NCBI GenBank assembly: GCA_905478335.1
Contig: CAJQIC010000068.1
Location: forward strand, 1-37,585
Length of the DNA stretch: 37,585 nt
Source of the DNA: an uncultured Bacteroidia bacterium
Lineage (GTDB): Bacteria; Bacteroidota; Bacteroidia; NS11-12g; UBA9320
Direction of reading: 5' to 3'
This document shows positions 27,776-37,585 of this stretch, piece by piece. The position numbers and the translations under genes are program-made. The notes under the pieces are model-generated. The model was not told where the DNA came from and ran no database searches. It saw only the letters and a program-made list of their open reading frames with translations. Within the stretch, counting starts at the first letter, position 1. Every line of letters starts with the position of its first letter.

Positions 27776-28588
27776 ATGGCTTCAAACAATTACAAAAAAG
27801 TAACTACGCACGCGTTGTTGGAAATGAAACAACGTGGAGAAAAGATAAGTATGTTAACGGCATACGATTATTCATTTGCAAAAATCATTGACGACGCAAA
27901 TATCGACGTCATACTTGTGGGAGATTCTGCGAGTAATGTGATGGCCGGACACATTTCTACCCTGCCAATAACCTTAGATCAAATGATTTATCATGCACAG
28001 TCGGTGATCCGTGCTATTGACCGTGCCTTGGTGGTTGTTGATTTGCCTTTTGGTTCTTATCAAGGGAATAGTAAGGAGGCATTAAATAGTGCGATTCGGA
28101 TTATGAAAGAATCTGGTGCACATGCAGTTAAGTTAGAGGGGGGAGAAGAGGTATTAGAATCTGTGACCCGGATTTTGTCTGCAGGTATTCCGGTAATGGG
28201 CCATTTAGGTTTAACACCACAAAGCATATTTAAATTTGGTACCTACACGGTTCGTGCAAAAGAAGAAGCGGAAGCGGCCAAGTTGAGAAAAGACGCTAAG
28301 CTACTTGAAGATGCGGGTTGTTTTGGTCTTGTATTAGAAAAGATTCCAGCCAAATTAGCGAAGGAAGTAACCGACTCTGTTGACATACCTGTTATTGGCA
28401 TTGGTGCAGGTGCAGGTGTTGATGGTCAAGTGCTTGTCCTGCACGACTTAATTGGATTAACAAAGGAATTCAATCCACGTTTTTTAAGACGCTATTTAAA
28501 TCTATACGACGATGTAAAAGGTGCCGTTCAGAATTATATAGCCGACGTAAAAAGTAAAGACTTTCCGAACGAAGAAGAACAGTATTGA
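27776..28588 (+). CDS. panB: 3-methyl-2-oxobutanoate hydroxymethyltransferase
   Basis: A 270-residue TIM-barrel enzyme that adds a hydroxymethyl group from methylene-THF to 2-oxoisovalerate, giving ketopantoate, the first step to pantothenate and CoA. Signatures are [26 protein letters not shown] (metal-binding Asp), [32 protein letters not shown] and [19 protein letters not shown]. Length is typical. It starts 6 nt after the secreted coiled-coil protein, an unusual partner, and is followed by gene-free repeat DNA. Confidence 0.97.
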
Positions 28589-28651
28589 TAATTTTAAATG
28601 TTGAATGTTCATTGAGGATTTAGGTAAAAGATATTTTAGCTATTAGTCATT

Positions 28652-28686
28652 AGCCAACAGCCAACAGCCAATAGCCAATAGCCAAT
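28652..28686 (+). repeat. 7-bp tandem repeat, 5 copies
   Basis: Five head-to-tail units of AGCCAAY: the first two are AGCCAAC and the last three AGCCAAT. It is preceded by CATT and followed by AGGGATG. Confidence 0.8.
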
Positions 28687-28785
28687 AGGGATGTTGATTC
28701 TCAATTCTGAGCTCTAACCACCTTAAGCGTTAGTCACAGCGTAGTGAAGAATTCAATTAAAAATTAAAAATTAAGAATTAAGCAT

Positions 28786-28808
28786 TCGGATTTGCGCAGC
28801 AAATCCGA
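28786..28808. repeat. Perfect hairpin with GCA loop
   Basis: Arms TCGGATTTGC (28786-28795) and GCAAATCCGA (28799-28808) pair perfectly over 10 bp around a GCA loop. No T-run follows on either strand, so it is not a normal terminator. The small hairpin at 28992-29006 has the same outer TCGG and the same GCA loop. Confidence 0.75.
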
Positions 28809-28909
28809 CAGCAATTGTCTTTTGAGTTTACTATCAGTTTCGACGGTATGATTCTTCGGGTTTCTCGTCGTCAACCACTCTGAATGATGGTCAGGCTTAT
28901 TTAGGTTAT

Positions 28910-28941
28910 TCAATCCCTCAATCCTTTAATCCATCAATCCT
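28910..28941 (+). repeat. 8-bp tandem repeat, 4 copies
   Basis: Four units of TCAATCCN (28910-28917, 28918-28925, 28926-28933, 28934-28941); the third reads TTAATCCA. A partial fifth unit follows. Confidence 0.7.
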
Positions 28942-28991
28942 TCAAAATTATCAGCCAGAAATTCTACATTCAAAATTTTACATTTTTCATT

Positions 28992-29006
28992 TCGGCCGCA
29001 GGCCGA
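28992..29006. repeat. Small GCA-loop hairpin adjoining the TPM gene stop
   Basis: TCGGCC (28992-28997), loop GCA, GGCCGA (29001-29006). It touches the TAG stop of the TPM gene (29007-29009) but has no T-run, so termination is doubtful. Confidence 0.6.
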
Positions 29007-29750
29007 CTACCAACTTCCGCCAGCGCCACCGCCACCAAAGCTACCGCCACCGAATCCGCCGAATCCACCTCCACCGCCAGTAAATCCACCTCCGCCACCT
29101 CCGATGTAACCTCCGGCTCCTGGTCCCATAATCCAACCACCTGAGCGGTTGCGATAGGTTTTACCGTTGTTACTCCCGAAAGAGGAGAAAATGATAATAA
29201 GTATGATGACTAAAACGATGATCAGCCACGTTGGAAACCCGTTGTCTGGTCCTGTGCCTCCTTTATATTCGCCCGCTGCAAACAAGATTAATTGATCCAC
29301 GGCTTTGTCTACACCTTCATAAAAACCGACGTTTCTAAAATTAGGTTTCAGAATGTAATCTACGACCCGGCCAGCATATGCGTCGGTCACTCTATGTTCC
29401 AAACCTCTGCCGACTTGAATAAACATCTTGCGGTCTTTAACCGCTACGTAAATAAGAATGCCATTGTTGTTGTCGCTCCCACCAACACCCCATGCTTTAG
29501 CCATTTTGTTGGAATACGTGAATACGTCTTCACCTTCTAAACTCTCGTCAAGGCAAATGGCAATCTGATTGCTGGTAGAGTCATCGTAGTTACGCAGTTT
29601 TTCGCACAGACGATTTTCTTGCTCATCAGATAATACTTTGGCAAAATCTTGTACAAATACGCATTGCCCTGTATTGGGCTTAGGTACATCTTTCGCCACA
29701 GCGAAAAGTGCAACGAGGCTAAGCAGCAGGGTAAGAACCTTACGCACCAT
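29007..29750 (-). CDS. TPM-domain (YgcG-like) protein with Gly-rich tail
   Basis: A 247-residue secreted or membrane protein. A signal peptide (about 1-18) precedes the TPM domain (VFVQDFAKVLSDEQENRLCEKL, then NGILIYVAVKDRKMFIQVGRGLEHRVTD), a single membrane helix (about 178-195, LIIVLVIILIIIF) and a tail of Gly repeats (about 215-245, GGGGG and GGFGG clusters ending GGSW). TPM proteins have been linked to photosystem II repair in plants and appear with LemA in bacteria, but their bacterial role is unclear. The ATG at 29750 is chosen over one 4 codons earlier because it opens the signal peptide at MVRK. Its start overlaps the stop of the second TPM gene by 11 nt. Confidence 0.85.
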   Translation of the reverse strand: MVRKVLTLLLSLVALFAVAKDVPKPNTGQCVFVQDFAKVLSDEQENRLCEKLRNYDDSTSNQIAICLDESLEGEDVFTYSNKMAKAWGVGGSDNNNGILIYVAVKDRKMFIQVGRGLEHRVTDAYAGRVVDYILKPNFRNVGFYEGVDKAVDQLILFAAGEYKGGTGPDNGFPTWLIIVLVIILIIIFSSFGSNNGKTYRNRSGGWIMGPGAGGYIGGGGGGFTGGGGGFGGFGGGSFGGGGAGGSW

Positions 29751-30174
29751 AACTGATATCATTGGTCAATTCGTTTCCTTTAGAATCATCGGCAGGGAAA
29801 TAAGTTTGCAACTGTTCTCCTGCATTTTGAATGCCTGCTATAATGCCTGATGTAATGTCATTCTGCTTGAAATACGTCGTCATTTTTTCTTTGGTTGTTT
29901 CCCAAAAATCATCTGGAACTTTTTCGTCAATTCCAGAGTCCCCTATAATGCTAAAGCAATGATCTTTGAGTGCAACATATATCAATACGCCGTTGCGCAA
30001 TGCTGTAGCATCCATCTCTAAATGAAAGAACAAATTTTGGGCTTTAAACACGGGGTCTCCTTTGCAGTATTCGTCAATATGCACACGAATCTCTCCTGAA
30101 CACATTTCTTCAGCTTCTGCGATGGCAGCCAATATTTGTTTCTCTTTTTTGGTTGAGAACGGTCTCCAGGCCAT
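29740..30174 (-). CDS. TPM-domain protein without signal peptide
   Basis: A 144-residue TPM-domain protein: an N-terminal helix (STKKEKQILAAIAEAEEMCSGEIRVHI), the core NGVLIYVALKDHCFSIIGDSGIDEKVPDDFW, and a long C-terminal helix (ITSGIIAGIQNAGEQL). It lacks signal peptide, membrane helix and Gly tail, so it should be cytosolic, unlike its neighbour at 29007. It sits between lemA (4 nt) and the longer TPM gene (11-nt overlap), a lemA-TPM-TPM order repeatedly seen in Bacteroidota. Biochemical role unknown. Confidence 0.85.
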   Translation of the reverse strand: MAWRPFSTKKEKQILAAIAEAEEMCSGEIRVHIDEYCKGDPVFKAQNLFFHLEMDATALRNGVLIYVALKDHCFSIIGDSGIDEKVPDDFWETTKEKMTTYFKQNDITSGIIAGIQNAGEQLQTYFPADDSKGNELTNDISYGA

Positions 30175-37426: not shown

Positions 37427-37585
37427 TTTGAGAGGTATTTTTATCTAATAGCAATTTTACATTCTTCGATTAGGGCTTAGCAGCCTTCAGTTCTTCCATT
37501 AGGCTTTTCAGCCATTGACTCGTCGTCCATTAGGCTTATCAAGTCCGCCAGTAGTCGGACAAGCTCTATAACCGATTTTCATTTT
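37427..37585. repeat. Intergenic repeat-like tail of the window
   Basis: No gene is visible. A 12-bp direct repeat, TCCATTAGGCTT, lies at 37495-37506 and 37526-37537, with related CATTAG/GGCTTAGCAG words around it. A short inverted repeat GTCCG-N8-CGGAC lies at 37543-37560. The words echo the CATTAGCC filler at 28648-28686. Confidence 0.55.

Follow-up and report, generated by a model that had tools for sequence, protein, structure and literature searches.

What fills the spacer between two conserved genes when it holds no gene of its own? The window analysed here, the whole stretch of 37,585 nucleotides of contig CAJQIC010000068.1 from an uncultured Bacteroidia bacterium, raises this question at a gap of 418 bp, which separates panB on the plus strand from a TPM-domain gene on the minus strand. 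The original prediction, made from the sequence alone, had described this gap as a mosaic of repeated 7- and 8-mers with two hairpins of a shared TCGG..GCA..CCGA design, possibly belonging to a small dispersed repeat family and varying between strains. We find that the gap contains tandem arrays of 7- and 8-nt words, which are dispersed in the genome, excluded from called genes and subject to fast turnover among congeneric genomes while the neighbouring genes stay fixed, and which at stop codons have a C-poor sense strand. Overall, both the earlier observation and its interpretation hold in part: the kind of repeat is already known, the hairpin family was mistaken, and the polarity on the stop side is new and merits a systematic survey.

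Tandem word arrays and their turnover

The gap comprises exactly positions 28589-29006 and is free of genes, as had been stated. Tandem Repeats Finder (TRF) reports three arrays scoring at least 45 in it, whereas 1000 first-order Markov shuffles of the gap gave only 10 such arrays in total. The repeated 7- and 8-mers are therefore real as tandem arrays, but not as raw counts of exact words: the commonest exact 7-mer of the gap has 3 copies, a count often met in shuffles, and CATTAGCC, which had been proposed as an array, occurs a single time. We conclude that the tandem order, which is far from chance, carries the signal of the gap rather than the raw word counts.

Our strongest counts on the placement of such arrays come from 64 blocks of the window's own genome (G000), 521,419 bases of 2.78 Mb, which were partly picked by matches to gap words, a choice that is independent of orientation. 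The unbiased stretches among them (387,461 bases including the window) were also counted apart, and nineteen 20-kb stretches formed the unbiased sample of the relative G004. Genes were called by a custom script based on open reading frames (ORFs) and a codon score, under which several G004 stretches were less than 70% coding and some distances there are rough. None of 91 word arrays in the 521 kb of G000 lay inside a called gene (the word sets overlap), and one TTAATTG match was found inside a called gene of G004. Of the 30 intergenic arrays in the unbiased G000 sample, 18 had a period of 7, 14 or 28; of the 36 coding ones, 19 had a period of 9 or 12. Rows with a period of 6-9 numbered 15, in 10 of 119 intergenic segments, compared with 0-1 in each of five Markov shuffles.

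The words recur far beyond this locus, as expected for the small dispersed repeat families that had been suggested. The gap has 65 matches in its own genome, self included (blastn, E ≤ 1), and its octamer, TTGGCTA, TTAATT and AATGTAA-plus-hairpin parts recur at other places, usually one part at a time. The GGATTGAA-type pattern was found 59 times in G000, with no match of its backwards control, 6 times in G001 and not in G004, and its matches in the fetched G000 blocks correspond to 27 arrays across about 20 gaps. Further copies of the TTGGCTA array lie in contigs C39, C9, C23 and C31; both the TTAATTC/TTAATTT word family and TTAATKN arrays are common to G000, G001 and G004. The backwards control is invalid for the TTAATKN and TTAATTY counts, because TTAATTY reversed is its own rotation, and usable for those of the GGATTGAA pattern, the hairpin design and the dispersed element described below. 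The gap as a whole matched in 3 of 58 searched genomes at E ≤ 1e-4 (G000 included), all of the same genus; G002 and G003, two further members of that genus, had no whole-gap match at this threshold. Since at most 11 candidates were scored per genome, the numbers obtained for relatives in this search are minimum values.

TTAATTY arrays occur in 12 of 247 sampled Bacteroidota, G000 included. The TTGGCTA word was also found on plasmids of Mycetohabitans, Thiothrix, Nostoc, Pseudonocardia and Streptomyces, and a TTAATTT-type word on plasmids of Kovacikia and Nostoc; an annotated gene covers the match in 2 of the 8 plasmid records, those of Thiothrix and Pseudonocardia. On a Mycetohabitans megaplasmid (NZ_CP062169.1:124322-124358; L225), the AGCCAAC/AGCCAAT order of the window is repeated with 37 of 37 bases identical, between convergent genes. 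In viral contigs, 3 stretches match the TTGGCTA pattern and a single one matches the TTCAATCC pattern; a phage collection gave no match.

Variation between relatives was also seen. The panB/TPM gene pair is kept in G001 (Bacteroidetes bacterium isolate bin.63, L081; mean amino-acid identity 92% over 17 matched genes) and in G004 (uncultured Bacteroidia AE_MB266, L082; 80% over 17 genes), and the orthologous gap measures 418 bp in G000, 275 bp in G001 and 83 bp in G004. For the other six gaps longer than 20 bp that were compared in all three genomes, the length difference to G000 is 0-6 bp in the case of G001 and 1-27 bp in that of G004. In G001 the gap words are TTCAGACA/TTCAATCC octamers and TTAATTY words on both sides, and in G004 there is an AATCTAA array. 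A second locus, with 85% identity between G000 and G001 over 447 bp, carries 5 full TTGGCTA copies in the former and 8 in the latter. At a third locus, one protein ends in RLAGG* in G000, RLAG* in G001 and RIAEGILNA* in G004, adjoining AATGTAA, TTAATTC and TTAATGC words, respectively; the last residues and the stop codon of the G004 protein lie in the array, a single case which shows that an array can absorb a stop codon and provide its replacement. Since the words are dispersed and vary between relatives, they are neither confined to this locus nor constant in copy number.

A C-poor sense strand at stop codons

In the gap, the named arrays read away from the TPM stop codon, which on the minus strand is followed by the 6-bp hairpin, AATGTAA words, the GGATTGAA array, the dispersed element, the 10-bp hairpin, the TTAATTC/TTAATTT array and the TTGGCTA/TTGGCTG array, in this order. 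For a polarity test that does not depend on words, we used those TRF arrays whose period is a multiple of 6, 7 or 8 and which come within at most 30 nt of a stop codon. On the sense strand, G exceeded C in 41 arrays of the G000 blocks and fell below it in 3 (4 ties; binomial p = 1.6e-9). The corresponding ratios were 8:1 in the unbiased sample of G000 (2 ties; p = 0.04), 9:1 in that of G004 (p = 0.02) and 4:1 at the G001 loci (3 ties); pooling the two unbiased samples gave 17 of 19 stop-side arrays with G above C (p = 0.0007). Post-stop flanks without arrays (n = 197) were unskewed (1436 G, 1381 C). We conclude that arrays at stop codons run in the sense of the gene with the C-poor strand. Near start codons, arrays with G below C compared with those with G above C numbered 9:2 in the G000 blocks (1 tie; p = 0.07), 3:1 in G001, and 2:2 and 0:1 in the unbiased samples; because these samples are small and lack a sign reversal, an outward rule at starts is not established. 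When only the array closest to a gene was taken from each gap, the 5' end of the C-poor strand was the nearer one for 49 of the 56 gaps examined in the G000 blocks; the unbiased samples gave 12 of 16 and 12 of 18, which are not significant alone.

Replication direction is an unlikely cause of this polarity in G004, since the strand flips with the gene inside single 20-kb stretches (C5:450001-470000 and C5:700001-720000). The same applies to an artefact of the gene caller, in which ORFs would absorb stop-free arrays, because most stop-side arrays begin outside the stop codon. A universal polarity of the words themselves was rejected: in other Bacteroidota, TTAATTY abuts the stop codon in reverse sense at 5 of 9 loci (L212-L216), where the sense strand is still without C. 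The polarity rule, if general, therefore concerns strand composition and not one word.

Quadruplexes are also unlikely to account for the placement in general. The consensus words are without GGG (three runs of this length lie in the gap itself, at positions 28688, 28858 and 28915), and the consensus of TTAATTY, AATGTAA, TTGATAG and of the TTGAAG and TGTCTGAA arrays of G004 lacks even GG, which rules out quadruplexes as the cause of polarity for these words. GGATTGAA and TTGGCTA contain GG and, judging by their sequence, may form weak two-tetrad structures; some variant units elsewhere contain GGG. As most words are without G-tracts, their polarity argues against quadruplexes as the general reason for the placement, and the rule needs another cause. 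A stop-side polarity of words without G-tracts was not found in the literature, which is weak evidence of absence, since most subscription journals lay outside the search.

Hairpins and other dispersed elements

The features of the gap and its borders are listed in Table 1. The hairpin described as perfect over 10 bp is indeed present, with an RNA fold of -17.5 kcal/mol (z -5.5), and a hairpin of equal length occurred in 5 of 1000 shuffles; the size of the 6-bp hairpin is common by chance (107 of 300 shuffles). That the two do not look like ordinary terminators holds as well, since neither was reported by a terminator scanner as a GC-rich hairpin with a directly adjoining T-tract, the criterion for intrinsic terminators. 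The single terminator-like site that the scanner found in the gap is 28636-28664 (shuffle mean 0.6). At C29:13423 of G000 and C5:566489 of G004, a terminator-like hairpin (AAAAAAGGGTTGC) has its T-tract fused with a TTAATTY array; in both genomes the hairpin comes after a GGGTGCACA end, perhaps that of a tRNA gene.

Table 1 Features of the panB/TPM gap, its borders and the loci of the dispersed element (TRF: consensus, period, copies and identity).
Feature	Position	Strand	Basis or remark
panB (3-methyl-2-oxobutanoate hydroxymethyltransferase)	27776-28588	+	left border; ORF, DNA matches to annotated panB, relatives
panB 3' flank	28589-28641	+	C-poor; degenerate 7-nt words TAATTTT AAATGTT GAATGTT
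TTGGCTA/TTGGCTG heptamer array (AGCCAAY on +)	28651-28688	-	TRF TAGCCAA, period 7, 5.4 copies, 93%
TTAATTC/TTAATTT heptamer array	28755-28781	-	TRF AATTAAA, period 7, 3.9 copies, 95%
Perfect 10-bp hairpin, 3-nt loop, TCGGATTTGC-GCA-GCAAATCCGA	28786-28808	-	4 nt before the TTAATTY array on the minus strand
Dispersed-element copy, TCATTCAGAG-stem-GACG..-stem-CGAAGAATC	28850-28887	-	most similar copy at L008 (C50)
GGATTGAA octamer array (TTCAATCC on +)	28909-28945	-	TRF TTCAATCC, period 8, 4.6 copies, 79%; degenerate
AATGTAA-type words	28960-28984	-	same words beside the dispersed short hairpin at other loci
Short hairpin TCGGCC-GCA-GGCCGA (family TCGGCC-NNN-GGCCGA), 6 bp perfect	28992-29006	-	directly 3' of the TPM stop codon
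TPM-domain gene	29007-29762	-	right border; ORF, orthologs in G001 and G004, TPM-domain annotation in one matching record
Dispersed-element loci	28850-28887 (window); L071, L074, L207, L235, L236, L243-L246, L248-L251, L008		

A family defined by the shared TCGG..GCA..CCGA design did not emerge. The pattern is without excess over its backwards control in G000 (9+10 matches versus 15+12, that is 19 versus 27), G001 (14 versus 15) and G002 (14 versus 16), and lies above it in G003 (58 versus 36) and G004 (20 versus 5). A check of stems covered G000 and G004: among 16 places with TCGG-N3..9-GCA-N3..9-CCGA in G000, an outer stem of at least 6 bp was present only in the 10-bp hairpin of the window and at C35:10148-10166 (7 bp, 5-nt loop), and in G004 only 1 of 19 places had one (6 bp, 13-nt loop), so that the excess there is not one of hairpins. 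The searches made did not reveal a second hairpin of the 28786-28808 sequence.

The 6-bp hairpin does belong to a real dispersed family, TCGGCC-NNN-GGCCGA, which is often followed by AAATGTAAAATGT; among the examined loci, its sites are in C68, C11, C23 and C31 (three) of G000, C47 of G001, and C1 (two), C4 and C5 (three) of G004. At C31:2164-2700 of G000 (L016), a unit of about 180 bp with TTAGCCA words and this hairpin is present three times in tandem, and at C5:760500-763000 of G004 (L090) two near-identical hairpin-array copies, separated by about 1.5 kb, may bracket an insertion sequence. Unrelated hairpins precede 7 of 35 TTAATN arrays and were counted in 7 of 166 control flanks (Fisher p = 0.004); of the 29 GGATTGAA arrays, none has one. 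A general rule of a hairpin before each array was therefore rejected, and hairpins are at most an occasional partner of the arrays.

The minus-strand copy at 28850-28887 is a member of another family, GTCATTCAGAG-stem-CGACGNNAGGAG-stem-CGAAGAATC (also GTCATTC..GAAGAATC), which has a short form as well. The pattern matched 10 times in G000, 2 in G001, 25 in G004, 1 in G002 and 0 in G003, with no backwards match in any of them; the copy of the window starts with A and thus falls outside these counts. The stem halves differ between copies, yet mostly pair: 13 hand-parsed longer copies of the 15 listed (L235 and L244 left out) formed 56 pairs versus a mean of 42 when the halves were re-dealt (0 of 5000 shuffles), and after removal of near-duplicates (n = 10) 44 versus 34 pairs were counted (1 of 5000). 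A looser GTCATTC..CGAAGAATC pattern is present in at least 120 stretches of IMG/VR contigs; among 38 longer copies in the 80 stretches read, the outer stem has 2-6 pairs in 14 and none in 24, which exceeds re-dealt halves (mean 1.4 versus 0.4), with many copies being near-identical. The element had no match on plasmids and its short exact form none in viral contigs, and in 28400-29200, element copy included, Rfam gave no family at threshold and one sub-threshold microRNA match. Its sequence was not found in the literature, again weak evidence of absence with most subscription journals outside the search.

The related words noted at the window end amount to a few AT words, which precede what is mostly a different dispersed repeat: 37466-37585 is 86% identical to C50:595-709 over 120 nt. 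This repeat, with GGCTGATAAGCC hairpins and 'TATAGAGCTTGTCCGACTACTGGCGGACTGATAAGCCTAA', covers 307-709 in L008 (C50) and 13613-13835 in L074, and the contig of the window ends inside it. At the other border of the gap, the 53 bases adjoining panB have G 10 and C 2 on the plus strand, whereas the remaining gap has G 59 and C 80; by composition, they are assigned to the 3' flank of panB itself. The flank has the same start in G001, where it is extended as a TTAATTY array (orthologous locus L032/L081).

Possible origins and known repeat systems

Taken together, the gap is probably best understood as a set of 7- and 8-nt arrays of the short tandemly repeated repetitive (STRR) type together with copies of two or more small dispersed hairpin elements; they are located 3' of the TPM gene and were probably shaped by slippage, ectopic copying and selection. 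Replication slippage would add and remove units, ectopic copying, through template switching or gene conversion, would carry the favourite word of the genome to new loci, and selection would clear arrays that enter genes, because of which surviving arrays would be found at gene ends. Several points weigh against this account. No copying enzyme or intermediate was seen, and slippage alone cannot spread one word to about 20 gaps; in addition, the arrays seem to be more than neutral filler, given their polarity on the stop side and the fact that a published family unrelated to them agrees with it. Directional growth from the gene edge together with selection would explain the outward C-poor strand, but it predicts an age gradient, which was not found in 106 arrays (the two halves are 0.897 and 0.891 identical to the consensus, p = 0.61). 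We put forward only tentatively a cause of the polarity that is independent of the word and acts across bacteria, either strand-directed writing or expansion that starts at the gene edge or a shared boundary role that counters inward transcripts; the rule would then be that the C-poor strand begins at the gene edge and runs outward in many unrelated words, as has likewise been published for quadruplex heptamers of two other phyla. It is more doubtful that the arrays are 3'-boundary elements working with Rho, in which case the gene's own transcript would be C-poor and an inward transcript C-rich, G-poor and similar to a Rho utilization (rut) site, with YC dinucleotides every 7-8 nt, so that Rho would stop it and shield the gene from convergent or read-through transcription. 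According to PMC9160355, rut sites are C-rich and G-poor, with YC dimers counted at a spacing of 9-13 nt. The C-poor sense strand at stops (41:3) next to unskewed array-free flanks (197) fits such a role, as do plus-strand 78-nt windows within 28861-29006 with C 20 and G 5-10, the presence of the Rho RNA-binding domain in G000, G001 and G004, and a strict hairpin with T-tract within 80 nt of just 4 of 459 called genes. Convergent gaps hold 23 of 39 arrays in the G004 sample, where they make up 26 of 132 gaps, but their enrichment is weak in the unbiased G000 sample (6 of 24 arrays; 21 of 141 gaps), the antisense strands of TTAATTY and AATGTAA are without YC, and the words are not conserved.

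Unlikely in our view is a mobile hairpin family, similar to repetitive extragenic palindromic (REP) elements or miniature inverted-repeat transposable elements, with the arrays as passengers or footprints. Both TCGGCC-NNN-GGCCGA and the GTCATTC..GAAGAATC element are dispersed, and the triplicated unit of C31 and the paired copies of L090 would agree with mobility, but a Y1 (RAYT) transposase (PF01797) was not found in G000 and G001 (two each in G002 and G004), the generic design is not enriched in G000, G001 and G002, and the arrays are mostly hairpin-free, with none upstream of 29 of 29 GGATTGAA and 28 of 35 TTAATN arrays. That the arrays serve as all-frame stop cassettes, in which words with TAA or TGA and a period not divisible by 3 would place stops in every frame after the gene, is very unlikely: TTGGCTA has no sense stop, the TTGAAG hexamers of G004 stop one frame only, and arrays lie near start codons, too, even though TTAATTY, GGATTGAA, TTGATAG and AATGTAA hold a stop triplet in sense and the stop codon is, by eye, in phase with TTAATTY words at L173, L185, L187 and L188. 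A small-RNA gene in the gap is highly improbable. For a 71-nt TTGGCTA stretch, the fold is better than those of shuffles (z -3.7), but repeat arrays fold through their own near-complementarity, no Rfam family exceeded the threshold in the region, the central part of the gap lacks conservation in both G001 and G004, and promoter-like sites are at background (1 versus 1.6 in shuffles).

The preferred reading, STRR-type arrays with dispersed hairpin elements, places the gap among repeats of known kinds. STRR sequences of cyanobacteria are degenerate tandem heptamer repeats, and Nostoc plasmids match the TTGGCTA and TTAATTT-type words of the gap; the phylum is a different one, and the likeness is of words, without a claim of common origin. 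REP elements with RAYT transposases are short intergenic hairpins in several copies, whereas most of this gap consists of tandem words, and the lack of Y1 transposase matches in G000 and G001 argues against that reading. With units of about 7 nt, arrays that are intergenic at many loci and a length that differs between close relatives, the gap has the traits of STRR sequences and heptamer direct repeats. Such repeats are known from several phyla without a mechanism, and three congeneric genomes with the same gene order and swapped words make their turnover measurable.

The closest parallel in placement is offered by the GGGNATC heptamers of Xanthomonas and Nostoc, for which Rehm et al. (2015, PMC4692102) describe a G-rich sense strand near stop codons, an antisense placement upstream of starts and arrays nearer to the 5' ORF regardless of direction, and consider quadruplexes. 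The G-rich sense strand near stops is shared by the arrays studied here (41:3, 8:1, 9:1 and 4:1). The GGGNATC unit has a G-tract, forms quadruplexes in vitro and prefers four units in that account (PMC4692102), whereas the arrays studied here are built from many different words, 7 or 8 nt long (6 nt in G004), which for the most part have no GG at all, and their consensus words lack the G-tracts of three of three-tetrad quadruplexes. TAACTGA direct repeats, as described by MacGregor (2015, PMC4679880), occur in Beggiatoaceae, Cyanobacteria and five Bacteroidetes. They likewise form intergenic heptamer arrays without a known mechanism, mixed with other heptamers in some Bacteroidetes, their indels between two Cyanothece strains are mostly 7-nt steps, and their patchy spread over distant phyla (PMC4679880) resembles that of the TTGGCTA and TTAATTT words on plasmids outside the phylum. 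TAACTGA is one word, and in the genome on which that study centres it mostly lies immediately before start codons (PMC4679880), whereas the present genome has several words, which mostly follow stop codons.
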